Positions 8,978 through 27,576 of a DNA stretch of 34,949 nucleotides are shown piece by piece (position 1 is the stretch's first letter; each line of letters starts with the position of its first letter). This DNA is from Planctomycetia bacterium (lineage in GTDB: Bacteria > Planctomycetota > Phycisphaerae > Phycisphaerales > SM1A02), in the NCBI GenBank assembly GCA_005799475.1, contig SYGQ01000070.1, forward strand, positions 1 to 34,949, given 5' to 3'. Below the pieces are notes generated by a model. It was not told the origin of the DNA. It saw nothing but the letters and a program-made list of their open reading frames with translations, and did no database searches. A program made the position numbers and the translations under genes.

Positions 8978-11830
8978 CTACTGGTCGCACATGAATGCGG
9001 CGAGCTTCACGCACGCCTCGTCCCAGGCAATCGTGCAACACTCGGGCATCATCTTGCCGCAGATGAGCGCACAACACGAACCTTGACTGCAGTAGGGAGT
9101 CGTGTGCGGCGTGAAGCACGATCCCGTCGTCGGGTCGCCGCACCCTGGGGCGTCGCACACGCGACACTCCTCTTGGGCGAGGGCAGCGCACTGCGAATCC
9201 CACGACACCGCGCAACAAGTCGGCGCCAACTGGCAGACGGCATCGCAGCACTTGAGCACGCTGCACGCGGGCGAAAAATGCGGGATACAACAGTTGCCCG
9301 CGTCAGGGTCACCGCACTGCGGCGGAGGGCAGGCGGGGGTCTCACCCTTGACGCAGAGGGCGCGCGCGAGATTCGCGCATGTGACATCCCACGCCGTGTC
9401 GCAGCAGTACTCGTCTTGAGCGCACACAAGTCCGCAACAGGCCTCATCGCGGCAGTTGGGAGTGGCATGCGCCTCGCAGCAGTCCCCAGCGCACAGATCG
9501 CCACAGGGCCGCGTGCACCCACAGTCGGCGATTCCTGCCGCCTCCGACGCGCAGGTCGCGTCCCACGCCATGTCGCAGCAGACCGCGTCGATCTTGCACA
9601 CGGCTTCACAGCACGCGCTCGAGCGACATGCCGGGTTGTTCGGGTGTGCGGTGCAGCAGTCGCCCGCGAGCGCATCGCCACACTCTTCAGTGGGCTCGCA
9701 CGCCGACTCGGCCTGCGCCATGGTGGCGCACGCACTGTCCCAGAGGGTTTCACAACAGAACGAGTCCAGTCGGCACACCGTCACGCAACACATCCCGTCC
9801 GAACAGCCAGGATTCGAATGCGCTGACAAGCAACTTCCGGCATCGTCATTGCCGCAGCCGCGACCGCAGCGCTGGTATGCGAACTTCACACAGTCGTAAT
9901 CCCATCCGACGCTGCAGCAGTACGGATCCTGCGCGCACACCGCGGCGCAACAGAACTGGTCATCGCAGAATGGCGCGTCGTGAGGGAGCAGGCACTCACC
10001 GTTCGCCGAGCTTCCGCATCCGGGGAATCCGCCGCAGATGCCGCGAGCGAGTGAGGCACACTCCTGGTCCCAGATCACGACACAGCAGTTGGCATCCGAG
10101 AAACACACCGCGCTCGCGCAGGCAATGTCATCGCACGCCGGGTTTTCGTGCGCCTCAAAGCACGACCCCGTGCAAGGGATGTTCCAGTCGGGGTCCGGAC
10201 GGCAGCGTTGATTCGCGATGGAGACGCACCCCGAGTCCCACGCCGTCGTGCAGCACTCGGGGTCGACGAAACAGACAGCGTTGCAGCACGAGGCATCGAT
10301 GGACCCGGGTGTCGGATGCACCGTGAATGGCGAGTCCACGCCTGGGCAGCCGCCGACGGAAATGCAGACATACCCAACGAGGTCGGCGCACATCTGGTCC
10401 CAGGCGATCCGGCAGCAATTGGGCTCGATGCTGCACACGGCGGTCGAACAGTCGAGGTCCGCGCATCCCTTCTGGGGGTGCGCCACGAGGCAGTCGCCGC
10501 GCCCTTGCGCCCCGGTGGGCAGCGTGCAGCCGATTCCCAACTCAGCGAAGACCATCGCCTCCCCGACGCAGATCGCGTCCCACTGGACTGTGCAGCAATA
10601 GGTGTCGTAGAGCTCGCAAATCGTCCCGCAGCAACCCGGGTCGTCGCAGCCCCTGAGGAAGCTGGCGACGAAGCAAGTCCGCCCCCCCGCATGGGCGCAG
10701 TTGTCGCCGTCGGGCACGCAGGAAGCCTCGGCCTCGGTCGCGCAATTGCCATCCCACGCAACCTCGCAGCAGAATGGATCCCTCGCGCAGACAAGGAGGC
10801 AGCACACCGCGTCATCGCACGCAGGTGTCTTGTGCGGCTGGCGGCACGGGCCCGCGAAGACTTCGCCGCAGCCTTCGCACAAGAGCGTCACTTGGGCCAC
10901 ACAGTCGGCGTCCCACCCAGTCGTGCAGCATGCTGGATCGGCGGCGCACACGCGGTCACAGCAAGCCGGGTCCGCGCAGCCGGGATCGACATGTTCCACA
11001 AGGCAGTTGCCCGTCGCACCCTTGCACACCGGGTTCGTCGCGCACAGGGCGTCGGCGGCAGCCACGCATGAAGCATCCCAGGTCACGCCACAACAGAATG
11101 GGTCGGAATTGCAGACAGCGTTGCAGCAGACGAGCGAGGCGCACCCAGGCACCTCATGCACCTCAAAGCACGGTGCCGTCGCGCCACCTGTGCCGCACGG
11201 GCACGACACATCGACGCAATACTGGAGCACACCATTGACGCACTGGACATCCCACACAATCTCGCAGCAGAATGGGTCAAGTCCGCACACCGTCTCGCAG
11301 CACTTTGCGTCCCGGCAGAAGGGATTCCCGTGCGTGAGGCAGCAGTCTCCGGCCGTCACGCTCCCGCAATCGGCCTCCTGACACAGCAGCGACGCCCGCT
11401 CGACGCAGACGGCATCCCACACGACGCTACAGCATGCCGGGTCGACCACGCACACCGTGCTGCAGCACGAGGCGTCGTTGCAACACGCGGTGGTGCCAAC
11501 AAGGAAGCAACTCGGCAGCGCGTCACTCCCACAACTCACGCAGGCCGTCATCGCCACAGCGACACACGCCAAGTCCCACTCGACCACGCAGCACAGCGGC
11601 GCTTGCGCACACACGGCATCGCAACACAAGGCCGACGCACAGTACGGCGAACCGTGAGGGAGGAAGCAACCTCCGGTTCCGGGGAGCCCGCACGCGCCGC
11701 AGTTGACCGTCGCGATGTCGACGCACGCCTGATCCCACGACAGCATGCAGCAGCTCGGACGCAGCGTGCAGGTGTATTCGCAGCAGTCCCTGTCGGCGCA
11801 GAACGGTGTCGCGTGCACTTGGCTACAGAG
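8978..11830 (-). repeat. Tandem array of 17 protein-level Cys-rich modules (C-x8-C-x4-CC-x3-C-x5-CC-x3-WD-x2-C-x7-C)
   Basis: Manual alignment of the translation. CC-x3-WD-x2-C is present in all 17 modules; His near position 5 in 15 of 17. Module lengths 54,53,55,58,55,53,57,61,55,55,56,54,58,59,63,58,46 sum to 950 aa and account exactly for the interval plus the stop codon. Confidence 0.92.
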
Positions 11831-12946
11831 TCCCGCAGTCGGTGAACCGCAAAACAGCCCCGCCTCGCTGGTCGGATTGATGGCTCCAGGCGTATCGATA
11901 CCCGTTGTGACGACCTGGTCGAACGCCGAGAGCACCTTGTTGTCGGCGTTGCGAAAAATGTGCCTCGGCGTTTCGAGTGCTCCCGATCCTGGGTCGACCG
12001 GGTCGATCTCGAACAACGCACCGTGCGAGTAGATGCACCCGGCGCCCCCCGCGCCGGTGGTGATCGGGCTCCGAACGGCGCTCACGGCATCGAGGACAAC
12101 ATCCCATGGCGGGAGCTGGTTGGGAGGCGGCGGCCCGAACACGGGGGTGAACCGCGTGTCGATGGCGCAGTCCTGATTGCGGTCGATCGCCTGACCGACC
12201 GCCGGGACGGCTGTCTTCGCGGTGTAGCCGCTCCCCGAGGGGCGTCGGTAGACGAGCAGCCATGTCGTATTGAGATCGTGCTGCTGTGCGAAGGGGATCG
12301 ACTGGGGGATCATCTGTGGGACGACGCCCACAGGCACCGGCAAGCTGAATGAACTGTCGATGATGAGAGCGAGACCGTCAGCAGAAAACTCAGCGCCATT
12401 CAAGTCAATGACGCGGCGGATGAGCCCGTTGGCCAGCGTCGTCGAGTTGTTCCGAGAGACAAGGATCAGGTAGTAGCCCGCAGTGAACTTGCGCAAGAAC
12501 GGATAGTCCGAGGGCAGCGGCGACGGGACGCGGAACTCGACATAGCACTGCTGCGGGTCAGCCGGGCTCGGCTGTCCGCTGCGAAGCTCCGATATGGTGA
12601 ACGCGGGGACGCGCCCCTTGTTCGAGCCGAGCCCGCCCTGCGTCGTGCCCGTGAAACTCACAAGGCGTGTGAGCTGAATCTTGTCGTCGTTGTCGAGGAC
12701 TCCGTTCCGGTTGATGTCAGCGCACGGCGAGTACTGCCCCTGCGCGACCAACCCCTGCCAAACGACGATGTCGGAGTTGTTCACGAGACTGTCTTGGTTG
12801 AGGTCCCCGATGAAGCTGGCCGGGGCGCAGTACTGCGCGGCGGCCGGAGCCACCGCGAATGACAATGCGACCAGCAAGCCTGAGAGGGCCCTGAAACACC
12901 ACCCCCCAATCAGTTGACGCCCTCGCGGGCCCTGCTGCACAGCCAT
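8978..12946 (-). CDS. Secreted giant cysteine-rich repeat protein with dockerin-like segment and 17 tandem Cys-rich modules
   Basis: ATG at 12946 (MAVQQGPRGRQLIGGWCFRALSGLLVALSFAVAPAAAQYC, signal peptide), about 1322 aa. 17 repeats of ~53-63 aa cover the C-terminal 950 aa. Confidence 0.85.
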   Translation of the reverse strand: MAVQQGPRGRQLIGGWCFRALSGLLVALSFAVAPAAAQYCAPASFIGDLNQDSLVNNSDIVVWQGLVAQGQYSPCADINRNGVLDNDDKIQLTRLVSFTGTTQGGLGSNKGRVPAFTISELRSGQPSPADPQQCYVEFRVPSPLPSDYPFLRKFTAGYYLILVSRNNSTTLANGLIRRVIDLNGAEFSADGLALIIDSSFSLPVPVGVVPQMIPQSIPFAQQHDLNTTWLLVYRRPSGSGYTAKTAVPAVGQAIDRNQDCAIDTRFTPVFGPPPPNQLPPWDVVLDAVSAVRSPITTGAGGAGCIYSHGALFEIDPVDPGSGALETPRHIFRNADNKVLSAFDQVVTTGIDTPGAINPTSEAGLFCGSPTAGLCSQVHATPFCADRDCCEYTCTLRPSCCMLSWDQACVDIATVNCGACGLPGTGGCFLPHGSPYCASALCCDAVCAQAPLCCVVEWDLACVAVAMTACVSCGSDALPSCFLVGTTACCNDASCCSTVCVVDPACCSVVWDAVCVERASLLCQEADCGSVTAGDCCLTHGNPFCRDAKCCETVCGLDPFCCEIVWDVQCVNGVLQYCVDVSCPCGTGGATAPCFEVHEVPGCASLVCCNAVCNSDPFCCGVTWDASCVAAADALCATNPVCKGATGNCLVEHVDPGCADPACCDRVCAADPACCTTGWDADCVAQVTLLCEGCGEVFAGPCRQPHKTPACDDAVCCLLVCARDPFCCEVAWDGNCATEAEASCVPDGDNCAHAGGRTCFVASFLRGCDDPGCCGTICELYDTYCCTVQWDAICVGEAMVFAELGIGCTLPTGAQGRGDCLVAHPQKGCADLDCSTAVCSIEPNCCRIAWDQMCADLVGYVCISVGGCPGVDSPFTVHPTPGSIDASCCNAVCFVDPECCTTAWDSGCVSIANQRCRPDPDWNIPCTGSCFEAHENPACDDIACASAVCFSDANCCVVIWDQECASLARGICGGFPGCGSSANGECLLPHDAPFCDDQFCCAAVCAQDPYCCSVGWDYDCVKFAYQRCGRGCGNDDAGSCLSAHSNPGCSDGMCCVTVCRLDSFCCETLWDSACATMAQAESACEPTEECGDALAGDCCTAHPNNPACRSSACCEAVCKIDAVCCDMAWDATCASEAAGIADCGCTRPCGDLCAGDCCEAHATPNCRDEACCGLVCAQDEYCCDTAWDVTCANLARALCVKGETPACPPPQCGDPDAGNCCIPHFSPACSVLKCCDAVCQLAPTCCAVSWDSQCAALAQEECRVCDAPGCGDPTTGSCFTPHTTPYCSQGSCCALICGKMMPECCTIAWDEACVKLAAFMCDQ
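12659..12811 (-). other. Dockerin type I-like segment (two Ca-binding loops)
   Basis: IGDLNQDSLVNNSDIVVWQGLVAQGQYSPCADINRNGVLDNDDKIQLTRLV: DxNxDxxxNxxD and DxNxNGxxDNxD loops, each followed by a helix. Confidence 0.75.
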
Positions 12947-13725
12947 CACAACTCCTTCGTGCCCAACGATTCGGTCAATCCTAGCGGGGCGTTCCCCAAA
13001 TCCATCGTCGCATCGGCAACGCACCCAAATGTCCGGCGACGCGCCGAAAAGTCGGCAATGGCCCCTTGAAGGTCCGTTGGCGTGAACTCGGGCCAGAACC
13101 GATCCACGAAGAGGATCTCCGCATAGCTCGCCTGCCACAGGAGGAAGTTCGAAAGTCGACGTTGACCGCCGGTGCGGATGAGAAGGTCCAGCTCCGGCAG
13201 TCCGGCCGTGGCGAGGTGTCGTGCGATTGAAGCCTCATCGATCGAGTCGACGCTGCGGCTGCCCTTCGAAACTTCGGCGGCGAGCGATCGCGCTGCCGCA
13301 GTGATCTCTCCGCGCGCCCCGTAGTTCATCGCAAGCGCCATCGTGATCCGTGTCCCGGCCGCCGTCGCTCGTTCGACCTCATCGAACGCCGCCAAGACTC
13401 CACTGGGCATCCCCTCGCGGCTGCCAATGCGCCGAAGTCGAACGCCGCTCTCAATGAGCATGGCACACTCTTCGGCGAGCTTCTCGCAGCAGAGCGTCAT
13501 GAGGCCATCGATTTCCTCCGTCGGACGACCCCAGTTCTCGCTGGAGAAGGAGTAGAGCGTCAGCGCTTCGACGCCCGAGTCGGCGGCGGCTCGCAACACC
13601 GGGCCGATCGCCAAGGCGCCCGCGCGGTGACCCGCGAGCCGCGGCAGACCGCGCTCTTGAGCCCAACGGCCGTTGCCATCCATGATGATGGCGATGTGCC
13701 GAGGTGTGTCAACGCGGTGCGCCAT
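12946..13725 (-). CDS. uppS: Isoprenyl transferase (undecaprenyl diphosphate synthase)
   Basis: HIAIIMDGNGRWAQERGLPRLAGHRAGA, LTLYSFSSENWGRP, MALNYGARGEI-like region, LLIRTGGQRRLSNFLLWQASYAEILFVDRFWPEF. Confidence 0.95.
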   Translation of the reverse strand: MAHRVDTPRHIAIIMDGNGRWAQERGLPRLAGHRAGALAIGPVLRAAADSGVEALTLYSFSSENWGRPTEEIDGLMTLCCEKLAEECAMLIESGVRLRRIGSREGMPSGVLAAFDEVERATAAGTRITMALAMNYGARGEITAAARSLAAEVSKGSRSVDSIDEASIARHLATAGLPELDLLIRTGGQRRLSNFLLWQASYAEILFVDRFWPEFTPTDLQGAIADFSARRRTFGCVADATMDLGNAPLGLTESLGTKEL

Positions 13726-13726
13726 G

Positions 13727-16700
13727 TCACTCCAACACCTTTTCGAACATGAGGATCTTCGGTTGGTCGCCAGGACGATTCACTCCGCTGCGATCCACAA
13801 CGAGCACGAACCTCGACTCCTCGAGAAGGGTCGCTGGATTCGTTGCGTCCCATACTCCCGTGGCAGGATTGACCGCGACCGCTCGCACCTTGAGGTACAC
13901 GGTGAACACATCGCTGCGCGTCGTGACGAGGCTCGCGATGCCTTTGAGAAGGGCATGCTGTTCGGCAATGTCGCCGGCCACTGTTGTCCGGCCGTAGCTC
14001 GTCGGTTCGACCACGGGGGTGCTCACGAGATCCGCCTGGATGACATCGATCCCCATGCGCTCGGTCGAAAGTTGGGCGCCGAACTGGGTGGTGCCTGATC
14101 GCCAACCGATGCCGCCATCGGCGGGAACCGGAACAACCGGAGGAGCGTGGCCGGTGCTCGGCGTGCCCGCAGGCACCGGAGGATCCTCGCTTCCTCGGTA
14201 GGGATCTCGTCCCGCGTACGAAATGGACCACGACTTGTTGTCGCTCCAGCTGACGCCAGCAATCGACTCGGCCTCGGGGTCGGGTTCCTGCGCCGTCCCT
14301 GCCAGCGACGGCCGGTAGGCGCGATCCATGATCGAAAGTTCACCGACCGAGACGATGCCCCGCTCCCTACGCATCCCCGGATGGAACGGGAACAGTTCCG
14401 TCGCCGGCGGCGTCGGGAAGAACCCGCGATCGTCGTACTTGGGGCCATCGGGGGCGAGGGCGGCGGAGGGCATGCGATCGCGATAGTTCACAATCGTCTC
14501 GGGAATGCGAACCCGCCACACGCCCGGCGGCGCGATGCCGACGGCACCCCCTGCATTCACGGGGTCCTTGTCGTAGGCGAGTTGCTGCATGTGGGGCATC
14601 GCTCGCATCACCTCGATCGGTGCCGTATTGATGTTCACGAGGCCCGGCGTCGCTTTCCCCGCAAACCCCGAAGCGAGGCGAGTGCGCCGCTGGTCGGCCG
14701 TGAGCCGCTCCGCGTCGGTCGTCGTCAGATCGAGGTTGGCATCGATCGTCGCCACTCCCGCTCCATCGAGCGTGAATCCGTCGAGGATTGACGCGCCCGC
14801 CGGCAACGGCGGCACGAAGCCAACGACACTCAACACGGCCTCGCGAGCGCGATCGTGCCGGAAATGCATCGGCGCGTACTCGTCAGCGGCATCGGCCCCG
14901 AAACTCGGGAAGGGCACGATCGGATCATCGTTCGACTTCCTGGCGCCGCTGGACTCGCGCGTGCCCACCATCATCTCGCCTGCGGTGGCGTGCATCTTCC
15001 AAACCCCTTGGTCGAGTTTCATGACGGGCCCCCACACGGGCACATCGAACACTTCGCCGACCTGCTCGAACGGTCCGTCCCGTTGAGCCAGGCGCACTGG
15101 GTGCTGGTAAAAAGTCAAGGCGCGCGTGGGAATGCCCGCGCCGGTATCGCCAAAGATGTCTGTCGGTACAAGGCCGCCGTCGGGATCGCCCGGCCACGAT
15201 GCCGGTTGCACCAGCGGCCAGCCCGTGTAAACGCGATCGGCCCCGACAAGCTGCGTCCGCAGCGTAAAGTTCGTCGGCTTGCCGCGCGCCGCGGTTCCAA
15301 ACGGGGTCTTCGCGCTCACGATGACGATTTTGTCGGGCTCGGTCTTGAGTTCCTGCGCTGTGAACACAACACCCGGGAAGGGCGACGAGTCGCCAGCGAC
15401 AAGTCCGACATAGTCAGGAAGGCCGCTTCCCGCCTTGACCACCATCGGTTTCGAGTTGGACGCGAAGACGAAGCGTGGCGAACGCTCGTTGGGCGTGATC
15501 GCCATGTTGCCGTCGACATCAAGTGTCCAGGGTCGACTCATTCTGGCCCAAGTCATCAAGAAGTCAGCGTTGCCGACGGCCACATGGGCGAAGGTCTGCG
15601 TGGCGCTCCCGGGATTGGGCGCCACATACTTTGGCGGCACCATGTAGCCAGCGCCCGAACCAGTCTGGGAGCCCCCGGGCGGCGCGGCTGGTGGCGGATC
15701 AAGGAGGCGCTTGATCGTCTCTTTCCATGGATGATCGTGCTCTGGCTGTCCCATCGCGTCGACAAGCGAGAAGTCATTCTCCAAGCGGTCGACAACAACC
15801 GTGGCACTCGAATTGGGGTTGTATGGGTCGGCGACCATTCGCACGAGCGCAATGTCCGAATCGTCCTCGTTCGCCGAGTTGATCTTGTCGAGATAGAACT
15901 TCGGGTGGAGGTCCCACCGCATCGAGCCCGCCTCCGTGATCGGCTCGCCGCCTGTCTGCTTCGACGCGTTGAAGAGCATCGAGTCCGCGTACACGGTCGA
16001 CGCGTCCTCGAACATGTCCGATTGTGTTCCACCGACGGGAAAGACTTCGTTCTGTGGGACCGCAGAGAACTCTTGCACCAGCCGTTGCGGAACCACTGCA
16101 CCGGCGGGCGCACCCGAGGCCTTCATCCACGGGTGTGTCAGGTCGAGCATGGCCATCATCCGAGCGCGGAAGTTGGCATCGTCGGGGAAGGACTTCGGGA
16201 TCGCGAACACGACCGCGCTCCGTGGCCCTTCTTCCGTGGCGGGCCCAAGGACGGGCGTGAAACCGTAGCCCCACCGACCATCGGCACCTGTCGCGGGCTG
16301 AAGGAACTGGAACGATTGACCGAAGGCACGCAGCTGGAACGGCCAGAGTTCGATCGGTTCGTTGTACGGATTGGCGATCTGCACGGCGAGCACGATGCGT
16401 GCCGCATCACCGTTGGTTTGGTCGTAGCACACATAGCCGCCGCCGGCACCCGGAACTCCGGCAGGAATCGTCCCCGTCTTCGGGTAGACGACCGCGAAGA
16501 ACACCTGCACGATGAATGGGTGCTTCTCCTCGCCAATAAAGCTGTAGGTCTCGCTGCCCTCCTGAAGAATGATCCCGCGCTCGGGATGAAGCGGCGGGTC
16601 CGTCGGCACATTGAGACCCGCCTGCAGGCGCGGACCATCGCGTGCGGCAAGGATGTTGGCGGCCCAGCTCGCGCATGCGCGCCGAGCCTTGTCGAGGTCG

Positions 16701-19048
16701 GCGATCTCAGAACCAAACACGCTTGTGCGTGTGTCCACATCGAGGAGCGATCGCTGGAGCACCTTCATCGCGTCGCGGGCGAAGTCGTGCTGCGCCATGA
16801 GGAACTGCTGAGCCGTCGCGTGGTCGTCGAAGAGTTCGCGGTTGAGGTCGACCTTCTTGTTCCAGTCGAGGAACTGGCTCCGCGCCAACTCGACATCGGT
16901 CTGATCCACAATCCCGTCGCAATTGCCATCGCCAACATTGGCTCCTGGCTGCGCCGGGAACTGCAGCGCGAGGTCGGGCGTCCCCTGCGGCGGCACGCTG
17001 CGCGGCGCGGTCACTTCGAGGATGCCGTAACTGGTTTGGTAGAGCGGCCGCCACGAGCGGACTTGCCCGGCAGTCCATGGGTTGTTGACATCGACTGGAG
17101 GCGCCGGAGGGAGCGTCCAGAGCCATGGCGGCATGAGTTCATTTCGCGCGCCGCTGACAGTCGTCAACTTGCGTCGGTTGTCGAACAGGAGCTGCCTCGC
17201 ATCGAGTTGGTCGAAGTATTCACTCGTCTCCTCACGCTGCATCGAGGAGCGCAGAAACTGGAAGTTCTGATCGGCCGCAACGGTGTCCGGATCGATCGCG
17301 CGCTCCAGCCGGCTGCGCAGATACGGATTGTTGTGGCCGGCGAAGCCGCGCAACTCCAACTCGTCGGCCATTGTGAACGGATCGAGCTGCTCGACGGGCA
17401 ATCCGGATGAACCCCGCACGATGGCGTTCCCGCCACTGTCGAAGTATCCATCCACAGCCCCGCCCTGCGCCATCGACTTGAAGTATCGCGTGCGCTCGAC
17501 ATTCGGCTTCAAGAAGTTGGGGAATGCGGGGTTTGCCGCGGCGACACCCGAGTTCGACTCCTTGACGAGGCTCAACTCTCGCAGGACCGTCGGATCCGTG
17601 ACCGACCCGGGAATCGTGGCCGTCAGCATCGGCGCACCGAATCGAGAAGGCTGAAAGTTGACCGCGATCTGCGGGTAGGCCCCCGTTGTCGCGGTGTTGA
17701 ATGGCGAGCTGAGGAACCCGACCTCTTCGGAGTTCCCCGCGAGATCTTGCCGACTCACGAGCGCGAGGTCCGACGGTGTGGCTCCAACGGTCGTGGCAGC
17801 ATCGCTGCGCGTGGCGACATTCACATTGAGCAGCGCGCAGTTGTCCACGACCGAGACGCCGACAACATGCCGCACCGATCGATCGAGCGATGTTGGCGCG
17901 AGGAACCAGAAGCTGTCGGTGAATCCATCCCCGTCGGTGTCGCACATCGTTCTCGTGATGATGTTGCGCGGCGAGTCCTTTACGAACTCATCGCCCTTGG
18001 GGCCGAACCATTTCAGCCGAAGAAAGTTTGGCAGTGCCTTCGCCGAATCGAGAACGCTCTCCGCGTGCGCGGTCGAGAACCACCCGCCGGGCGTCGTCGC
18101 CGGAGCAACCCCGAACGCCAACTGCTGGAATGTGAGCGCCGCATCACCCTGCGGAGTGGACGGGTTTGGATACGGCCCCAACGGCGCGGGTGGTATCGCC
18201 CCAATCGTCGTCGGGATCCACAGATTCGCATCGGGCGCCACCGACGGCAGCCACTGCTCGTAGGGAATCTGCAGTCCATACCGGGCTGGCGTGCCGGGAA
18301 AGAACTGTGCGGCATTGATTGGCGCCACTGCAGTCAGCGTGTTGGCCGTCACACTTGAGATATCTGTGACGAGTCGCCACCCGTTGCTCGCGGTTGGGAT
18401 CCATGAAAGGTGCGACCAGTGCGAGAAGGCTGGCATCCCCTGAAAGACGACTCGGACCGGCTCGGTCGAGCGCAACCATCGCGCATCGCCGAACCCGGGA
18501 TTGCCCACGGGATTCCCCTCGGCGCCGCGGATGTCTCCTGCTGGCGCCGGAGGCGCGTTGTAAGCGTCTGGCCAATTCGTCCACGGCCGGACCTCGTAGG
18601 GTGCGAAGTTGTAGCCATCGACGATGCCGTCGGACCCGGGCGCGAGCGTCGAGTTGTTGACCATGTCCAGCGGATCGACGCCGAATCGCGTCTGCGCGCC
18701 CGGAATGAACGCGCTTCCCGACACGGGAACATCCGATGTGGGTGACAGTCGCGGGTACGCACTCGACGCAATGCCGCTCCCGACACCCACAAGCGCCGGA
18801 TCCGCCGAATTCACCGGCTTCACGAAGAGCGCCTGAGCGATCTCTTCGGTCACCCCGTGCGCGATCGGGCCGATTCGGTCCGTTTGGGCGGCCGCCTGCT
18901 GCTGCGCGGTCGCCGTCAAGCGGCTGCCCTGCGAACGGCTCACGAATGCCGACGCGAGGATCACGAGCAGCACGAGGATCGACACCACGAGAATCATCGT
19001 GCTGCCCCGAGGTGCACCGCGAAGATGTCGTTGCCCTGAGTGGGTCAT
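13727..19048 (-). CDS. Oversized GspK-like minor pseudopilin / T2SS-T4P associated protein (1773 aa)
   Basis: N-terminal RGSTMILVVSILVLLVILASAFVSRSQ membrane helix; C-terminal GLVNINTAPIEVMRAMPHM (GspK/HhH-like) followed by IVNYRDRMP; position after a run of pseudopilin genes. SD GGAGG precedes the ATG. Confidence 0.7.
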   Translation of the reverse strand: MTHSGQRHLRGAPRGSTMILVVSILVLLVILASAFVSRSQGSRLTATAQQQAAAQTDRIGPIAHGVTEEIAQALFVKPVNSADPALVGVGSGIASSAYPRLSPTSDVPVSGSAFIPGAQTRFGVDPLDMVNNSTLAPGSDGIVDGYNFAPYEVRPWTNWPDAYNAPPAPAGDIRGAEGNPVGNPGFGDARWLRSTEPVRVVFQGMPAFSHWSHLSWIPTASNGWRLVTDISSVTANTLTAVAPINAAQFFPGTPARYGLQIPYEQWLPSVAPDANLWIPTTIGAIPPAPLGPYPNPSTPQGDAALTFQQLAFGVAPATTPGGWFSTAHAESVLDSAKALPNFLRLKWFGPKGDEFVKDSPRNIITRTMCDTDGDGFTDSFWFLAPTSLDRSVRHVVGVSVVDNCALLNVNVATRSDAATTVGATPSDLALVSRQDLAGNSEEVGFLSSPFNTATTGAYPQIAVNFQPSRFGAPMLTATIPGSVTDPTVLRELSLVKESNSGVAAANPAFPNFLKPNVERTRYFKSMAQGGAVDGYFDSGGNAIVRGSSGLPVEQLDPFTMADELELRGFAGHNNPYLRSRLERAIDPDTVAADQNFQFLRSSMQREETSEYFDQLDARQLLFDNRRKLTTVSGARNELMPPWLWTLPPAPPVDVNNPWTAGQVRSWRPLYQTSYGILEVTAPRSVPPQGTPDLALQFPAQPGANVGDGNCDGIVDQTDVELARSQFLDWNKKVDLNRELFDDHATAQQFLMAQHDFARDAMKVLQRSLLDVDTRTSVFGSEIADLDKARRACASWAANILAARDGPRLQAGLNVPTDPPLHPERGIILQEGSETYSFIGEEKHPFIVQVFFAVVYPKTGTIPAGVPGAGGGYVCYDQTNGDAARIVLAVQIANPYNEPIELWPFQLRAFGQSFQFLQPATGADGRWGYGFTPVLGPATEEGPRSAVVFAIPKSFPDDANFRARMMAMLDLTHPWMKASGAPAGAVVPQRLVQEFSAVPQNEVFPVGGTQSDMFEDASTVYADSMLFNASKQTGGEPITEAGSMRWDLHPKFYLDKINSANEDDSDIALVRMVADPYNPNSSATVVVDRLENDFSLVDAMGQPEHDHPWKETIKRLLDPPPAAPPGGSQTGSGAGYMVPPKYVAPNPGSATQTFAHVAVGNADFLMTWARMSRPWTLDVDGNMAITPNERSPRFVFASNSKPMVVKAGSGLPDYVGLVAGDSSPFPGVVFTAQELKTEPDKIVIVSAKTPFGTAARGKPTNFTLRTQLVGADRVYTGWPLVQPASWPGDPDGGLVPTDIFGDTGAGIPTRALTFYQHPVRLAQRDGPFEQVGEVFDVPVWGPVMKLDQGVWKMHATAGEMMVGTRESSGARKSNDDPIVPFPSFGADAADEYAPMHFRHDRAREAVLSVVGFVPPLPAGASILDGFTLDGAGVATIDANLDLTTTDAERLTADQRRTRLASGFAGKATPGLVNINTAPIEVMRAMPHMQQLAYDKDPVNAGGAVGIAPPGVWRVRIPETIVNYRDRMPSAALAPDGPKYDDRGFFPTPPATELFPFHPGMRRERGIVSVGELSIMDRAYRPSLAGTAQEPDPEAESIAGVSWSDNKSWSISYAGRDPYRGSEDPPVPAGTPSTGHAPPVVPVPADGGIGWRSGTTQFGAQLSTERMGIDVIQADLVSTPVVEPTSYGRTTVAGDIAEQHALLKGIASLVTTRSDVFTVYLKVRAVAVNPATGVWDATNPATLLEESRFVLVVDRSGVNRPGDQPKILMFEKVLE

Positions 19049-19059
19049 GGGTGCCTCCG

Positions 19060-20598
19060 TTACGACACGGGCCTCTGCGGCAGTTCGATGATGAGTTGGA
19101 CGGTCCGCCCTTGCTCAAGACGCTTCTCTGGGTCGTGGAGGGTCATGGTGATGCGGAGCGCCGTTGGCCAGGGCGTGTAGTCCTGATTCGCGATTGGAAC
19201 GCCCGCGAGGTTGGTGTAGAACGGCGTGTCGGCGTTGAATCCAAACGCCGCCGTGTAGACCTTCACTGGGACGGATGCTCCCAATGGCTGCGACACCGGC
19301 TCCGGGAACAACATGGGAAAGCCCTCGATCGCTTCAGGGAGGATGGGCAGGTGCACATAGAGCGGGTTCCCACCACTGACAAAGTTGTCGCGGTACTCGG
19401 TCAATGACATCACGCCGCGGCGCGACTCGGCCTGCGTCGCAGGCGCGTGCGCATCGGGGAAGCCCCACCAAGGGGTCGGCAGCAGCGACGACGGCGTGAA
19501 GCCAGGGAACAGGACCGTGCCACCAGGGGTGGCGAGGTAGGTGCGGCCCGTCGCGTTGGCCCAGGTCCAGTCCACCATGAAGCTCGAGCAGTTCGAGGCG
19601 AGCGTCGGCGAGGTCAGCATGACATCCAATCGGTGCATGCTTGGCGAACGCTTCTCGCTGCGCACATACCCGCCGACCTGCCCGAACGCGGCCGGCGAAC
19701 CGAAGAATCCGTTGATCGCACGGGTGCGCCAATTCGCATTCCCAACCGGCGCGAGCACGCGCCGCAAGTCATCGAGATTCATGCTTGTGACATCCACGCG
19801 GGAGTTCACGACATCTGGACTGGGACTGAGCGCGCCGTCCATCAAGGTTTGGTGGAGGTTGGCCTGATTGAACAGACTCACCGCCGAATTGGGACCGTAG
19901 GTGGGCGTGGTCTGCTGAAAAAGCGTCCGCGTACCGCCGTCGTCGGCCAAGAGCACCGCCTGCCGTGCGAGCGTCCACTCGCGGGCCTCCGGCTGCGTCC
20001 CGTTGGTGCGCCCGCCGCCGCCACCGATCCAATACTGATAGTCGAGGCTCGGTCCATCTGCAATCGTGTCGTAGCTCCACGGCGTAAGCGGTCCGAAGTC
20101 GAACCCCACCGGATCCGGGCGCAGCGTCTGCGAGGGTCCTTCGGGCACGAGATCCGGCAGCTGAATGCCGTGGCCGTAGATGACCCGGCTGACGGCGCTG
20201 CGCGAAAGCCCGTTCCCTGTACCAAGGTCATTGCCCCCAGAAAATCTCGCCGAATCCTGTGTGCCCTTGGCGAAGAAGACGAGTTGGTCAGCGCGGATGA
20301 CTGCGTCGGGCGGACGCGTCGGATCCAAGAGTGGTGCCGTGGGATTCGAGAGTTGGTTGATGTTGTTGCCAATCTGCACGCACTGGATCAGGAGGACCCC
20401 GTCGCGATCGAGCCGGGCGATATCCGTGCGGATCTGTCGCTCGATCGCGCCGATCTCCTGGAGCACGCTGGCGTTGGACTCGCCGATTCCAGCGACCTTG
20501 CTCGCGGTCGAAAAAATCTTGCTGGTCGCCGCGATGACGACGAGGAGCAGGCTCACTGCCACCATCAGTTCGACCATGGTGAATGCTCGTGGGCGCAT
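19060..20598 (-). CDS. Prepilin-type N-terminal methylation domain protein (GspJ-like minor pseudopilin)
   Basis: MRPRAFTMVELMVAVSLLLVVIAATSKIFSTAS class III signal; 512 aa. Confidence 0.82.
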   Translation of the reverse strand: MRPRAFTMVELMVAVSLLLVVIAATSKIFSTASKVAGIGESNASVLQEIGAIERQIRTDIARLDRDGVLLIQCVQIGNNINQLSNPTAPLLDPTRPPDAVIRADQLVFFAKGTQDSARFSGGNDLGTGNGLSRSAVSRVIYGHGIQLPDLVPEGPSQTLRPDPVGFDFGPLTPWSYDTIADGPSLDYQYWIGGGGGRTNGTQPEAREWTLARQAVLLADDGGTRTLFQQTTPTYGPNSAVSLFNQANLHQTLMDGALSPSPDVVNSRVDVTSMNLDDLRRVLAPVGNANWRTRAINGFFGSPAAFGQVGGYVRSEKRSPSMHRLDVMLTSPTLASNCSSFMVDWTWANATGRTYLATPGGTVLFPGFTPSSLLPTPWWGFPDAHAPATQAESRRGVMSLTEYRDNFVSGGNPLYVHLPILPEAIEGFPMLFPEPVSQPLGASVPVKVYTAAFGFNADTPFYTNLAGVPIANQDYTPWPTALRITMTLHDPEKRLEQGRTVQLIIELPQRPVS

Positions 20599-20600
20599 CG

Positions 20601-21791
20601 TTAGAGTTCCTGCACCGTGGCAAAAACCGGAACGAGCGAGTTGCCTGCCGCGTCAACTCCGGGAATGAACCAGATCGCGCGCACCGCGGGATTGAGCCCG
20701 GTCGAGGAGCCATCGGCTCCGTACCCGAGTTGTGAAGGCACGGGCAATGGATCAGGGATCGGCCGCGAGAGCATCACCGGTCCTTCGCGAGTGTTCCGTC
20801 GACCACCGACGACCCGATGAACTGTGTTGTACTGATCGACGAGCCACTGGCCTGGATACTGCCAAGTCAGATCGACGGCGAAGTCCACCGGATTGCCGGT
20901 CAGAGCGGCCGTCCCTGGAACGATGTGATTGTCGGCGGCCGTGGGCACACTCGCATCGAAACCGCCGGGTGTCCAAGGGGCCACCAACACGATGCCCAGA
21001 GGAAGCGGTGGTGTCGCGGAGTTCACGGGCATCGCCGCCTGCGCCACGCTGTAGGGGCGCGGTTCTCCGCCGCTGACGATCCGATAGACGAAGATCGCAA
21101 CCTGAATGCGGCCCTCAAACCGTCGGAACATGCACTCCCAGTGGTACGCAGGCTTCTTGGAGCCCTGCCCCGCCGTCCCTGGCTGCGGGTAGCCGCGCTC
21201 GGCTTGCGTAATGATCACCAGCGGTTCGCCCTCGACGCTCGAGATGGTGTGATCGAAGGGCTGGAAACCGCTCTCGAAGAGCGAGCGGTTGTAGGGAATC
21301 CCGTAGAGGGTCGCTCCGGAACCGCCGCCCGCATCTCCGTCTGGCGATTCATTGCCGACCTTACTCACATTGACGGTGCCACCGAGACCACCACCGTCCA
21401 TCTTGCTTGAGTACAGCGCGCTAAAGACATCGATCGCACCGAGTTCGTCAATCGCGGAGCTGTTCAGGTCGTGGAACAGGAACCCGGGGCGCTTCCAGCG
21501 CCAGTCGCCTGGGATGGTGCTCCCGAGTACCAACGAGGAAGTTCCCGATGGCGGCATGATGAAGTCGACTTGACCGAAGTCCTCGTAGGTACCGAACCAC
21601 TCGGGCTTCAACTTGAGGCGCAGGAGCGCCATCGCGTTGTCGGCGACGATGGGACCCATGATGTCGTCGGCGGCCTGTCGCTGCTGCGCAATGCCCACAG
21701 GGAACAGAGCGGAGATGCCGATGATCCCGATGCCGAGAATGAAGACGGCCATCAGCAGCTCGACGAGCGAGAAGGCGCGGCGGACGATCAC
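20601..21791 (-). CDS. Prepilin-type N-terminal methylation domain protein (PilV/GspI-like)
   Basis: GTG at 21791: VIVRRAFSLVELLMAVFILGIGIIGISALFPVGIAQQRQAADD. The listed ORF starts earlier at 21890, but the GTG gives a GTGA overlap with the upstream stop. Confidence 0.82.
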   Translation of the reverse strand: MIVRRAFSLVELLMAVFILGIGIIGISALFPVGIAQQRQAADDIMGPIVADNAMALLRLKLKPEWFGTYEDFGQVDFIMPPSGTSSLVLGSTIPGDWRWKRPGFLFHDLNSSAIDELGAIDVFSALYSSKMDGGGLGGTVNVSKVGNESPDGDAGGGSGATLYGIPYNRSLFESGFQPFDHTISSVEGEPLVIITQAERGYPQPGTAGQGSKKPAYHWECMFRRFEGRIQVAIFVYRIVSGGEPRPYSVAQAAMPVNSATPPLPLGIVLVAPWTPGGFDASVPTAADNHIVPGTAALTGNPVDFAVDLTWQYPGQWLVDQYNTVHRVVGGRRNTREGPVMLSRPIPDPLPVPSQLGYGADGSSTGLNPAVRAIWFIPGVDAAGNSLVPVFATVQEL

Positions 21792-22735
21792 TTGGGCATC
21801 ACCTCCGCCACTCCAGTAAATCGATTGAAGTGGATGCGGTCGGCGAACTGGTTGACGAAGTCGGTGCGGGCGGCATTGAGCGTGGCCCATGCCCCGTACC
21901 CCTGCCAGTCGGCTGGAGTCCCCTCTTCATGCATGCGCTCGTCGTCGTAGACGGCGAGGAAGAGCGTGTGGTCGCCCAGAGGTTCGTCATTCCCTTCGTC
22001 GTACGCGAAGTACTTGCCGTTGCTGCTCCCTGTCGTCGTGCCGATGTCGATCCGCGCGTTTCGATTGAAGTCGATGTAGGGGGCCACAACGGAGGTGTCA
22101 GTCCCCGACGCGGTGAGGTTGCCCGTGAGGGAAGGATTCCGAGTGATGGTTGAGCCATCAGCCCCGTAGCGAACAACGACCATGCTCGCGCGCTCCGTGT
22201 TCTTGAGTTCGGGCTGTCCGAGCCAGACGGTGTCCTGCCCGATGTCGTTGATGTCCGTGACATCGGCGGCCGACCCGGCGACCTTCACACCCGACGGAAG
22301 GAGCCGCGGCGGAACGCCTTCGACGGGCTCGAACTCCTCGATGAGAAGGTCATCGATTCCTGCGGCTGGAAGGACAAGTGTCCAGGCTCCGGCGGTCGCG
22401 GCACCTGGGAATCCGATCCGACCGGTCGGCTTGGCGATCACGATCTCCACCTGTTGAGGCTTCGTCTTGTCGACCTGAACGACCCCCGATCCGTCCTTGT
22501 ACACGGGCTGGCGAACCTTGAACGCCACGAGCACGGTCGAACGGTCCCGAATCGCGATCGCCCGCGCCTGGCCAAGTGCTGCGAGCACATGATTGGTCGC
22601 ACCCGCGACCTTCGCGTCCTTGGCGATCCGCTGCGCACTCATGGTGACGGTGATCGCCAGAACGGCGATGACGCCGATGACCGCCAACAACTCGGCGAGC
22701 GTGAAGGCGCGGCACTTGTGCGTCGCTGCGCTCAT
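21788..22735 (-). CDS. Prepilin-type N-terminal methylation domain protein (GspH-like)
   Basis: CRAFTLAELLAVIGVIAVLAITVTMSAQRI; 315 aa. Confidence 0.82.
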   Translation of the reverse strand: MSAATHKCRAFTLAELLAVIGVIAVLAITVTMSAQRIAKDAKVAGATNHVLAALGQARAIAIRDRSTVLVAFKVRQPVYKDGSGVVQVDKTKPQQVEIVIAKPTGRIGFPGAATAGAWTLVLPAAGIDDLLIEEFEPVEGVPPRLLPSGVKVAGSAADVTDINDIGQDTVWLGQPELKNTERASMVVVRYGADGSTITRNPSLTGNLTASGTDTSVVAPYIDFNRNARIDIGTTTGSSNGKYFAYDEGNDEPLGDHTLFLAVYDDERMHEEGTPADWQGYGAWATLNAARTDFVNQFADRIHFNRFTGVAEVMPK

Positions 22736-23463
22736 GGTCGTGGCAGCGGCTCATAGGAGTAGATGTTGTCTTCGGCGGTGTTGAAGTCGCCGTCGGGTCC
22801 ACAGGAAACAAAGTATGGGCGACGGTTGCGGCACACGCCGATGGTCTGCTCGTCAATCGTGCGCACGCTGCCATCGTTGGCATCCGTGTAGATCGTTGGA
22901 TTGGCAAGCTCGGCCTTCGTGGCCGCGCGACCCGGGAAGCAACTCGAGATGCGTCGACCCCATGGGTCCACGAGTTCGCGAATCAGCCCGAGCGCGTTCG
23001 CCGGCATTCGGTTGGGCAACCAAGTCGCCGGCAACGGCTCCCCGAGAACGGTGGCGCCGTTCATGGGGACGAAGCGCAGGGCCGACCCGGGGATCTTGGC
23101 GAGGATGTCCGCTGACTCCGAACCCGGCGCGGCCAGTTGCTCAAGCAGGATGCAGATGATGTACGCGCTCGTCGCATTCAACTCATAGATGTCGTAGGCC
23201 ACATTCGGGGTGGTGCCCGTATAGTCGGGAGGTCCACCGCCTCCGGCGGGAACGGCCCGGCGTCCGTACGACATCTCGCGCCCCATCTGTGCCTGCCATG
23301 ACTCCATGGCCTGTTCAAGAAGTTTGAAGGTCGTCTCAGTCGTTCGACGGTCGTTCGAGGCAAGGACGGCGCTCGTGACAGAAAGCGCGAGTGCCATGAG
23401 GATCAGGATGATGCCGATCACGACGACGAGTTCGAGCACGGTGAATGCACGGCGAATGATCAT
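22732..23463 (-). CDS. Prepilin-type N-terminal methylation domain protein (GspG-like)
   Basis: MIIRRAFTVLELVVVIGIILILMALALSVTSAVLASNDRRTT; ATGA overlap with neighbours. Confidence 0.82.
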   Translation of the reverse strand: MIIRRAFTVLELVVVIGIILILMALALSVTSAVLASNDRRTTETTFKLLEQAMESWQAQMGREMSYGRRAVPAGGGGPPDYTGTTPNVAYDIYELNATSAYIICILLEQLAAPGSESADILAKIPGSALRFVPMNGATVLGEPLPATWLPNRMPANALGLIRELVDPWGRRISSCFPGRAATKAELANPTIYTDANDGSVRTIDEQTIGVCRNRRPYFVSCGPDGDFNTAEDNIYSYEPLPRP

Positions 23464-24512
23464 TGGCCGATCTCCACGACATTGTCCTCGTTGAATCCTC
23501 CCGCATCGACGCGTGCGGTGAAGTCCGCGTCGCGGTCGGGTCCCATTGAGAAGAGCGCGAACTCGGCGCCGACGAGTCCCTTTGACGTCGTTGTGTCACC
23601 GTTGGCATCAGCGAGTCCATCGATGCCGGTCCCGGCCTCGAACCGCTGCGGTCGAAGCACGAAGATGTCGCTCAGATCCCAGCCGAGACCGAGACTCCCA
23701 GTGCTGCCTCGCCCGCGCGTCATGCGAGGATCCGCGTTCATGTAGCCCTTGCGGTAGTAGCGAATGGGTTGCCCCCAGTAATCGACGATGCAGCGCGGTG
23801 CCGTCTCGATGAAACTGTTGTCGCCCGGGCGAGCAACAATCGGTGCACCACTGGGAGCGAAACCAACCACCGCGCCGAACATCGAGGCATCCTTGAGCTC
23901 GAGGTAGGGCCCCAGGGCGCGGCCAGACACATTGGCCAGAGTCGAAGTGTTGGCCGCAACGCCCTGCGGAAGATTTCGTTGCGCGAAGGTGCCCGGTGGC
24001 TGTGTGGAATTGAGTGGAGTGAGGTACGACCCCCATGCGCCGTCCTTCAGCGGCGCTCGGATGCCAACCGCAGGAATCTCCTTGGATCCAAGCGAGTTGG
24101 CCACTGGAGTTCCGACCGCACCATATCCGTCCTGGTCGCGGCCGCCGGGGCCGATGAGGTACTCCACAAGCGTTGTGATCGAGCAGTAGTTCTGCGGCGT
24201 GACCTGTTGGGGGAGCGTCGGTCCGCCGATCACCTGAGGGATCAAGAGGTCGCGCAGGTGTCCGGAAGATCCGACGGCCGACGGCATCGAGGGAGCCGCT
24301 CCCAAGACCGGTGGGAAGTAGCCGAGGTCCGTCTTGAACCGGGCAAGTGCACTGGAGATGGACCCCATGAGCGCGCGGGTGCTCGCGGCCTGTGCCGCCT
24401 TCGCCGAACTCGAGAGCACCGTCACCAGAATCCCGACCAAGAGCACAATGACCGCCACGACGACGAGCAACTCGACGACCGTGAACGCGCGGATGCCCCG
24501 CCCGGTACGCAC
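23460..24512 (-). CDS. Prepilin-type N-terminal methylation domain protein (GspG-like)
   Basis: RAFTVVELLVVVAVIVLLVGILVTVLSSSAKAAQ; 350 aa; start GTG overlaps the gspF stop (TAGTG). Confidence 0.82.
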   Translation of the reverse strand: MRTGRGIRAFTVVELLVVVAVIVLLVGILVTVLSSSAKAAQAASTRALMGSISSALARFKTDLGYFPPVLGAAPSMPSAVGSSGHLRDLLIPQVIGGPTLPQQVTPQNYCSITTLVEYLIGPGGRDQDGYGAVGTPVANSLGSKEIPAVGIRAPLKDGAWGSYLTPLNSTQPPGTFAQRNLPQGVAANTSTLANVSGRALGPYLELKDASMFGAVVGFAPSGAPIVARPGDNSFIETAPRCIVDYWGQPIRYYRKGYMNADPRMTRGRGSTGSLGLGWDLSDIFVLRPQRFEAGTGIDGLADANGDTTTSKGLVGAEFALFSMGPDRDADFTARVDAGGFNEDNVVEIGQ

Positions 24513-25795
24513 TAGCCGCCACCCTTGGAGACCGACTCGATCATGGCGACGAGCGGGAGGAAGAGTGCGAGCACGATCGTTCCGACAATGCCGCCGAGGA
24601 TGACCACCATGAAGGGCTCGAGCAGCGAGAGGAGGCTCGCGACGGCCACATCTACTTCTTCGTCATAGTTGTCGGCGATCTTCATGAGCATGGCATCGAG
24701 GTCGCCCGTCTCCTCACCGACATCGATCATGTTCACGACGATGGCGTCACACACTTTCGCCTCGCGCAGCGGCTTGGCGAACGACTCACCCTCGCGAACC
24801 GAGTCGTGCACCTTCGTGAGAGCTTTCTCGAAGACATAGTTCCCCGAAGTGTCACGCGTAATGAGAATCGCTTCGAGGATCGGCACACCCGCGGCCACGA
24901 GCGTGCCGAGCGTTCGCGTGAACCTCGCGATCGCCGTCTTGCGGATCAACATGCCGATGACCGGGAGTTTCGTGCGAATCACATCCGTGGCCGCACGCCC
25001 GAACGCCGTCTTCCTGACCACCTTGAAGAAGAAGAAGATGAGGAAGGGCGAAAACATGACCCAGACCGCGCCGGGGACGCGCTGACCGTCTTCCTGGCCG
25101 GCCACCCACTTGCTGGCGGCGATGAGCCACTTCGTCAGCCCAGGGAGTTCCACCTCGAAGTCGTTGAAGATCTCCTGGAACTTCGGGATCACGAAGTACA
25201 TGATGCCGGTCACGATGGCGACGGCAATCGTGATGACCACGGCCGGATAGATCATGGCGCCGATGATGCGCCGCTTCAGCCGCTGCCCCTTCTCCATGAA
25301 GTCGGCGAGCCGCTGCATGATGACATCGAGCACGCCGCCGATCTCGCCGGCGGCCACCATCTTCACATAGAGGGTCGAGAAGACCTTGGGGTGTTGCCCG
25401 AAGGCGTCGGAAAGCGACGAACCTGAACTCACCGACTCACAGACCTCGCCGAGCACATTCTTGAGCTTGCCCGGCTTCTGCTGATCTTCCAAAATCTGCA
25501 GCGATCGGAGCAGCGGAAGGCCCGCGTCTTGCAGCGTGGACATCTGCCGCGTGAATGTCGTCAGCACCTTCGTGCTCACCCCGCCGATCGAAATGGAGAA
25601 TCCCTTCTTCTTCTTGCGGTCGAGGTTCGGAGTCTTCTTCTTCTTGGCCGCGCCTTTGCGCTGCTCACGAACGGAGGTCGGAAAGAGTCCGCGCGCGCGA
25701 ATCTGGCGAATGGCGTCTTCGCTCGAACCCGCCTCGACCATCCCCTTTTCTGTCTTCCCTGCCGCGTTGGCTGCCTCGTAGGCAAAGTTCGCCAT
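24512..25795 (-). CDS. Type II secretion / type IV pilus inner-membrane platform protein GspF/PilC
   Basis: ANFAYEAANAAGKTEKGMVEA..., TTFTRQMSTLQDAGLPLLRSLQIL, MVAAGEIGGVLDVIMQRLADFMEK, LVAAGVPILEAILITRDTSGN, VNMIDVGEETGDLDAML. ATG 25795 preceded by GGAGGA. Confidence 0.95.
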   Translation of the reverse strand: MANFAYEAANAAGKTEKGMVEAGSSEDAIRQIRARGLFPTSVREQRKGAAKKKKTPNLDRKKKKGFSISIGGVSTKVLTTFTRQMSTLQDAGLPLLRSLQILEDQQKPGKLKNVLGEVCESVSSGSSLSDAFGQHPKVFSTLYVKMVAAGEIGGVLDVIMQRLADFMEKGQRLKRRIIGAMIYPAVVITIAVAIVTGIMYFVIPKFQEIFNDFEVELPGLTKWLIAASKWVAGQEDGQRVPGAVWVMFSPFLIFFFFKVVRKTAFGRAATDVIRTKLPVIGMLIRKTAIARFTRTLGTLVAAGVPILEAILITRDTSGNYVFEKALTKVHDSVREGESFAKPLREAKVCDAIVVNMIDVGEETGDLDAMLMKIADNYDEEVDVAVASLLSLLEPFMVVILGGIVGTIVLALFLPLVAMIESVSKGGG

Positions 25796-25800
25796 GGGTT

Positions 25801-27576
25801 TCACTCCTCCGTGATCGTCTCGCGGACGACCTCGTCGATGGTGGTCTGACCCTCATAGAGCGCGAGCAATCCCGACTCGCGAAGCGTGCGCATGCCGCGC
25901 TTACGCGACTCCGCGCGCAACACGGCCGTGGACGCTTGCTGCATCACCAGTTCGCGGACTTCGTCGTCCATCATCATGATCTCGAAGAGCGCCATGCGCG
26001 ACTTGTAGCCCGACTTCGTGCACGCGTCGCAGCCTCGGCCGCGGAACAACTGCCGACCCTGCACATCCGCCGGACGAAGATTGAGCTCCATCAGGTGCTC
26101 CTCGCTCGGGATGAACTCTTCCTTGCACTGGGTACAAATGCGTCGGACCAGCCGCTGCGCGACGATCGCCTCGATCGTCGCCGTCAAGAGGAAGCTCTCG
26201 ACGCCGAGATCGAGAAGTCGCAGGATGGAACTCGGCGCGTCGTTGGTGTGGAGCGTCGCAAACACAAGGTGCCCCGTGAGGCTCGCCTGGATGGCGATTT
26301 GTGCCGTCTCGAGGTCACGGATTTCGCCGACGAGAATGATGTCGGGATCTTGGCGCAGGAAGGATCGGAGCAGTTTCGCGAAGGTCAACTCCTGATCCAT
26401 GTTGACCTGGCACTGGACCATCCCTTCGATGTCGTACTCGACCGGATCCTCAGCGGTCAGGATCTTGGTGTCCACTTGGTTGAGCTCACGCAGCGCGGCG
26501 TACAGAGTGGTCGTCTTGCCCGAGCCGGTGGGCCCCGTGACGAGCACGATGCCGTTGGGCTTGTTGATGATCATTCGCATCGTTTTGAGCTCGTCGTCGC
26601 GAAGCCCGATGCGATCAAGTTCCAATTGCACCGCGGAGCGATCGAGCACACGAAGCACCACCGACTCGCCGAACATCGTGGGCAACACAGCGACACGAAG
26701 GTCGATCGGCTCGGCCGAAACGCCTTCGTAGTTGATGCGGCCGTCTTGCGGGAGGCGGCGCTCGGCGATGTTGAGTTTGGCCAAAATCTTGACTCGACTC
26801 ACGATCGCCATCGCGATGCTCTGCTCTGGATTCTTCATCTCGTAGAGCACGCCGTCGATTCGGTAGCGAAGCTTGAACTCGTCTTCGAAGGGTTCGAGAT
26901 GGATATCAGAGGCGCGATTGGCGATCGCCTGCATGAGCATGTTGTTCACAAGCCGAATCACCGCGTTGTCGCTCGCGGCATCCTGCAGTGAGGCCATGTC
27001 GACCGAGTCGCCGCGACCCTGAAGATTCTTGACCGCCTCGGATCGGTTCACTTCGGAGTAGAGCTCTCCGGTGTCGACCTTTCGTGAATACTCGCGCTTG
27101 ATGACCTCGTCAATCTCTGCGGCAGGCGCGATGACGACAGTCACCGCGTACCCCGCCATCACATTCATCTTGAGGTTGTCGACGGCCTGGAAGTTCGAGG
27201 CGCTCGCGATCGCCACAGTGGCCGACTTCAACTCCTGGTCGACAGCGATGGGGACGACCTTCATCACATTCGCCGTCTCAGAGGAAATGACCCGGAAGAC
27301 CTCGGCCGGGATCTTCATCGCGACGATGCTGACATAGGCGAACCCGCGTTGCCCTGCGAGGGCGACCGCGAGGTCGTACGCCGTGATGAGCCCCATATCG
27401 ATCAGCAGTTCCCCGAGCTTCTTCCTGATCTTTGCGGGGTCGTTGGCGCGCGCCTCGATCGCCGCGTGAACCTGCTCCCGCGTGACCTTCCCCATCTTGG
27501 TAAGAACTCGACCGATCTTGCGGCCCTTGAGTTCTGACGGATCGATGGCGGCCAGTGATTCTGGCATGGTGTTCAC
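25801..27576 (-). CDS. PilB/GspE-family secretion ATPase with N-terminal MshEN-like domain
   Basis: Walker A GPTGSGKTTTLYAAL, Asp box EDPVEYDIEGMVQCQV, Walker B DPDIILVGEIRDLETAQIAIQASLTGHLVFATLHTND, CTQC...CDAC tetracysteine. Start either GTG 27576 or ATG 27567. Confidence 0.95.
   Translation of the reverse strand: MNTMPESLAAIDPSELKGRKIGRVLTKMGKVTREQVHAAIEARANDPAKIRKKLGELLIDMGLITAYDLAVALAGQRGFAYVSIVAMKIPAEVFRVISSETANVMKVVPIAVDQELKSATVAIASASNFQAVDNLKMNVMAGYAVTVVIAPAAEIDEVIKREYSRKVDTGELYSEVNRSEAVKNLQGRGDSVDMASLQDAASDNAVIRLVNNMLMQAIANRASDIHLEPFEDEFKLRYRIDGVLYEMKNPEQSIAMAIVSRVKILAKLNIAERRLPQDGRINYEGVSAEPIDLRVAVLPTMFGESVVLRVLDRSAVQLELDRIGLRDDELKTMRMIINKPNGIVLVTGPTGSGKTTTLYAALRELNQVDTKILTAEDPVEYDIEGMVQCQVNMDQELTFAKLLRSFLRQDPDIILVGEIRDLETAQIAIQASLTGHLVFATLHTNDAPSSILRLLDLGVESFLLTATIEAIVAQRLVRRICTQCKEEFIPSEEHLMELNLRPADVQGRQLFRGRGCDACTKSGYKSRMALFEIMMMDDEVRELVMQQASTAVLRAESRKRGMRTLRESGLLALYEGQTTIDEVVRETITEE

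Follow-up and report, generated by a model that had tools for sequence, protein, structure and literature searches.

The window, which is the whole 34,949-nucleotide stretch of DNA that was analysed, carries on its minus strand an open reading frame of 1773 aa (13727-19048; ATG at 19048, stop at 13727-13729) that looks like a GspK minor pseudopilin of unusual size. This raises the questions of whether the protein is a genuine member of the GspK family and, if so, what its enlarged head would do. The frame has no internal stop, starts 11 bases past the gene for a J-like pseudopilin and ends 1 base ahead of uppS. Given that an end-to-end counterpart with 76% identity is found in another genome of the same genus, the frame is considered a real gene. 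A gene fusion or frameshift artefact was ruled out because the family holds unbroken homologues whose lengths are similar.

The landmarks that a sequence-only reading had proposed are present. A prepilin-like cleavage site and N-terminal helix occupy residues 14-35 (18944-19009, minus), where RG is followed by STMILVVSILVLLVILASAF (beginning STMILVVSILV); as in GspK, position 5 is hydrophobic and lacks Glu. The giant is the sole pseudopilin of its operon without Glu5, and every relative whose N-terminus could be read has a hydrophobic residue at +5. The predicted helix-hairpin-helix (HhH) motif near the C-terminus is the ININTAP block LVNINTAPIEVMRAMP at residues 1470-1485, part of a larger T2SSK/HhH block (residues 1469-1573, 14330-14644, minus; GLVNINTAPIEVM...VNYRDR...SVGEL) supported by the family alignment, PF03934 and hhalign. 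The protein closes with GspK-type strands (residues 1693-1773, 13730-13972, minus; TTRSDVFTVYLKVR...VVDRS...PKILMFEKVLE) that were identified by alignment of C-termini and by hhalign.

Single-sequence searches fell short of naming the protein. No Pfam family was matched by the 1773-aa protein at E<=1, and neither GspK model (PF03934, NF037980) scored over its cut-off; for PF03934, a match around NINTAP reached 13.2 of the required 24.2 bits. Relatives reached 22.3 of 24.2 bits on T2SSK, also under the cut-off, and 13 of 35 C-termini matched PF03934, all under the cut-off (best 0.0017). Compact relatives of 843-1100 aa from other orders of the class scored over the cut-off for HHH_3, and the NF037980 GspK model matched both their N-terminal helix (1.4e-5) and their HhH (2.8e-4). 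Sequence searches of the PDB using the 1773-aa protein and four family profiles returned only short motif matches at chance level. AlphaFold models of residues 575-1773 (9-row alignment) and of a full-length compact relative of 1038 aa (10-row alignment) each had a pLDDT of 32.8 and were unusable because the alignments held only 9-10 rows.

Profile comparison did identify the scaffold. Orthologues were gathered from the genus, family and order, and their C-termini were aligned into a family profile that was compared using hhalign with 19 canonical GspKs from T2SS clusters of the same genomes. The C-terminal profile matched with a probability of 97.3% (E=2.2e-11) across PGLININTAP/HhH, YRD, GxxSxGEL, TTRSDVF and VVDRS, and the full-length comparison gave 95.8% (E=7.7e-9). 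Canonical GspKs end in VDRSTLPAQILxYRE and the giants in VVDRSxVxxPxDxPRILxFExV. N-terminal regions aligned to GspK across the helix only, and from the order of the blocks the giant and GspK would share a common pilin sheet. The sequence-only reading had staked itself beforehand on a GspK relationship, and for the scaffold that relationship holds. To judge by its sequence, the 1773-aa protein is a greatly enlarged GspK-type minor pseudopilin.

Its size was also read correctly as several times the usual, since the source genome also encodes a canonical GspK of 464 aa, which is over the cut-off for PF21687, HHH_3 and PF03934. Median spacings from helix to NxN, from NxN to NINTA and from NINTA to the end are 111/243/103 aa in canonical GspKs and 393/1126/307 aa in giants of the source's family. 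The scaffold is thus stretched at three places, and the greatest stretch falls in the domain that GspK itself carries as an insertion (PMC7248040, PMC8179133), where the distance between the two NxN motifs rises about fourfold, from ~240 to ~1100 aa. The proposed insertion of over 1000 aa is borne out by these spacings.

Within the giant, blocks shared across the order were found in the insert at residues 551-650, 776-960, 1150-1200 and 1326-1360. The first (17099-17398, minus; PFxxADExELR...SRLE...LTTxSGARN) resembles, by eye, the first GspK helical subdomain. The second (16169-16723, minus; AVQIANPYxxPIxL...) is probably a lamin-tail-like beta-sandwich; matches to the Lamin tail domain (PF00932, cut-off 34.3 bits) were sub-threshold in 6 of 35 members, with 22.9 bits in the best relative. 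No known adhesive, lectin or enzymatic domain was recognised in the giant. An alternative is that the giant and its enlarged I- and J-like neighbours are purely a structural cap, priming and shielding a thick or unusual pseudopilus tip, with a ligand-free insert whose size has drifted because tip heads tolerate length. Such drift would fit an insert that is the least conserved part of the protein (column conservation 0.15-0.3 over long stretches) and ranges from 465 to 1460 aa. However, the order-wide blocks hold near-invariant residues (R519, T629, N798, G839, P844, N893 and P894), which is more than filler requires, and we regard a cap without ligand as unlikely.

A conserved signature block lies at residues 340-430 (17759-18031, minus), recognised by conservation and shuffling, in which a DxDGDGxxDSxW loop, placed ahead of the first NxN, is followed ~25 aa on by VxDNSxxLNVN. 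Both the DxDxDGxxD spacing of an EF-hand-type loop and its conservation are found at residues 370-378 (DTDGDGFTD; 17915-17941, minus), as had been proposed from the sequence. D370, D378, D402 and N410 are kept in every one of the 37 relatives with sequence at these positions. When the protein was shuffled 10,000 times, the pattern DxDxDGxxD turned up in 0.28% of the shuffles and D[TA]DGDGxxD[SA]xW in none. Conservation and shuffles together ruled out a chance EF-hand pattern. The loop is likely to bind calcium, and such a site fits the GspK family because GspK/XcpX binds calcium (PMC6211770), though perhaps at a different position. The DGDG block alone had no real hhalign match in GspK. As a separate observation, an acidic insert shared throughout the family (GEDWNLNGRLDxNEDDG...WPxDxxDGxLDAGW; L086, G000:C23:50918-52309) is found in the canonical GspKs of these genomes and looks like a calcium site of its own.

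A second, dockerin-like loop suggested by the sequence-only reading does exist at residues 706-718 (GDGNCDGIVDQTD; 16895-16933, minus), but as a single half-motif and not as a family trait: it is retained only in the genus and in one other lineage (L048). The two 22-residue calcium-loop repeats of dockerin type I were not found, nor was a Pfam dockerin match, and a dockerin module was ruled out on the grounds that a lone half-motif is limited almost to the genus. A duplicated dockerin-like loop does occur near the N-terminus of a protein of ~1386 aa encoded elsewhere in the window (8978-13138, minus). That protein has many repeats of PHxxPxCxDxxCCxxVCxxDPxCCxxxWDxxCV, matches no Pfam family at E<=1 and, in many of the family's genomes, is kept next to uppS/purA.

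The minus-strand genes upstream of the giant were annotated. In the direction of transcription they encode a PilB/GspE-like ATPase (28836-30581) with an MshE-type c-di-GMP motif (48 bits against a cut-off of 38), a PilT retraction ATPase (27653-28810; TIGR01420, 450 bits, cut-off 319), a PilB/GspE assembly ATPase (25801-27576), a PilC/GspF platform protein (24512-25804), two GspG-like pseudopilins of 243 and 350 aa (22732-24512), a GspH-like pseudopilin of 315 aa (21788-22735), an oversized GspI/PilV-like pseudopilin (20601-21890; a 429-aa frame whose true start is probably internal), an oversized GspJ-like pseudopilin of 512 aa with Glu5 (19060-20598) and finally the giant. The MshE-type motif suggests control of the pilus by c-di-GMP. 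Operons of the order and class always place the giant last after G-H-I-J, which agrees with the tip-type position first assigned to it.

PilT, PilB and PilC, the combination used to recognise a type IV pilus operon, all occur together here, and because PilT is over its cut-off the machine belongs with retractable type IV pili rather than with simple type II secretion systems. A PilM match lies elsewhere in the genome. The operon could instead be a second T2SS-like exporter, with a giant head that recruits folded exoproteins or pushes them through a secretin. The closest scaffold is indeed GspK and not PilX, the P. aeruginosa PilX being without the GspK insertion (PMC7248040), and three secretins are found in the genome. 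Against a secretion role, however, PilT and two PilB/GspE ATPases are in the operon, no GspC, L or M was recognised there, and the genome already encodes a secretin and the canonical 464-aa GspK in a T2SS-like cluster of their own. We consider a second exporter quite improbable.

Lower still is the chance that the insert binds DNA for transformation. A precedent is offered by Thermus ComZ, whose pilin sheet carries a large inserted domain that is proposed to do so (PMC8179133), and the HhH blocks of the compact relatives resemble ComEA. The HhH block, however, belongs to every GspK scaffold and is for that reason no evidence for DNA binding, and no competence genes were seen within the 34,949-nt window. 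A DNA-uptake tip is therefore rated very improbable.

The neighbours of the giant change in size with it. Its length correlates with that of the J-like protein (rho 0.77, 44 operons) and of the I-like protein (rho 0.79, 39 operons), and within the source's family the values are 0.71 and 0.72, in each case with kinship ignored; among the remaining orders of the class the correlation is weak. The three tip proteins I, J and K appear to have enlarged in concert. Parallel enlargement of I and J is also what a structural cap would lead one to expect.

The giant is widespread. Using the 1773-aa protein as query, 49 of 61 relatives were matched, the named relatives being Phycisphaerales and Phycisphaerae genomes from metagenomes, and the operon is kept in synteny across the order and the class Phycisphaerae. 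The counter-case set beside the original proposal was a common long family already described in the lineage, of which the first part applies: a search with the C-terminal profile matched 171 of 198 genomes of the class at E<=0.001 (weak matches may be canonical GspK), and open frames span 648-2682 aa among 110 of the matches listed. The second part does not, as no description of the giant family was found in the open-access literature. Among the matches listed, the median frame is 1795 aa in the source's family, 1365 aa in the order's remaining families and ~1050 aa in other orders, and giant size is thus ordinary for the class and no oddity of the source genome. The loop signature DxDGDGxxDSxW...LNxN also finds proteins of 862-1952 aa in other planctomycete classes (eight were fetched), where those of 1600-1960 aa close similar operons. 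In most cases these operons hold gspE, gspF and several pseudopilins, with the giant last (example protein DNDGDGTPDSIWVDLG...DLDGRLNLNAHG). The distant proteins did not match the curated GspK and TIGR02600 models, and a search of viral contigs found nothing. Annotation pipelines miss giant K proteins because they score under every cut-off; the protein is a real, conserved and under-annotated giant variant of GspK.

On this evidence we favour, with reasonable though far from full confidence, a giant GspK-type minor pseudopilin that is the initiating subunit at the tip of a retractable machine resembling a type IV pilus and carries an enlarged, ligand-presenting head. The N-terminal helix would insert the protein, which would undergo prepilin processing and join the I-, J- and H-like products of the genes directly upstream in the tip complex of a machine to which the PilB, PilT and PilC homologues of the same operon belong. 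We infer that the head would then be exposed extracellularly on the tip of the pilus, with its probable lamin-tail-like beta-sandwich and a presumed calcium-stabilised loop beside the first NxN strand. Particles, polymers or surfaces may bind to the head and would then be pulled in by PilT-driven retraction; a head that binds ligand or captures macromolecules is plausible. Pili-like fibres of planctomycetes, studied in another class, bind macromolecules such as dextran (PMC5394234), and a capturing head, if real, could be their missing binding component. A conserved giant tip subunit in a PilT operon, with PilY1 found in almost none of the relatives that were searched, offers a concrete candidate for the head through which planctomycete pili bind, and one that can be tested.

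Several known systems invite comparison. The PilY1/PilC tip adhesin is likewise a large tip protein, but it is no pilin. It is carried by core minor pilins and binds calcium in known cases. PilY1 was found in 1 of 31 relatives and in 0 of 14 control genomes, so the sensitivity of the search is unproven; the giant may take the place of PilY1. The sole PilY1 (L162, G005:C82) is in a 90% complete genome in which no giant K was found, maybe by chance or contamination.

Protein A of the Verru_Chthon cassette (TIGR02600, 1296 positions, function unknown) is, like the 1773-aa protein, a giant encoded with three prepilin-like proteins, and the last 40-65 positions of its model match the C-terminus of the giant family in most genera searched. 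Unlike that protein, the giant is far under the cut-off (15.1 bits against 332.3, at the C-terminal end only) and has no long alignment; 0 of 61 relatives were over the cut-off (best 29.6 bits). On the Verrucomicrobiota side the comparison used the models, and no paper on Verru_Chthon or TIGR02600 was found. Cassette models A/B/C/D (TIGR02600/02598/02599/02596) match K/I/J/H one to one, all sub-threshold (19060-22735, minus; L170, L178, L180), and the best cassette match was 4e-10, for model D in a class relative. Cassette A-D may be the same tip complex, which could explain the function of the Verrucomicrobia cassette. A broader, speculative proposal, to which we give only a minor chance, is a Planctomycetota-wide, unrecognised type IV pilus with an outsized I-J-K tip, in which a giant GspK head replaces PilY1, captures polymers or particles in a calcium-dependent manner and is retracted to the cell, and of which Verru_Chthon A-D would be the same complex.

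The closest known proteins are GspK/XcpX/PulK (PF03934, PF21687, NF037980), of which GspK caps the GspI-J-K tip with a domain inserted in its pilin sheet (PMC7248040, PMC8179133). The giant has in common with them a helix without E5, NxN and then NxNTA/HhH blocks, C-terminal strands ending in VDRS...IL and the last place in the order H-I-J-K; its block order would fit their large inserted domain, and its predicted calcium loop has a parallel in their known calcium sites. Unlike them it is ~4 times longer with all three scaffold spacings stretched, has the DxDGDGxxDSxW loop ahead of the first NxN, sits in a PilT-bearing operon and falls under all curated cut-offs. The modular pilins S. sanguinis PilB/PilC, CofB and ComZ likewise join a pilin scaffold to a bulky tip module (PMC8179133, PMC9934059); they act as tip adhesins (PMC8179133), and the domain-richest one surveyed has 860 residues (PMC8179133, PMC9934059). 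Unlike theirs, the module of the giant is a ~1000-aa insertion in a GspK-type scaffold with no named domain, and the modular-pilin idea is extended to a GspK scaffold that can hold an insert of this size.
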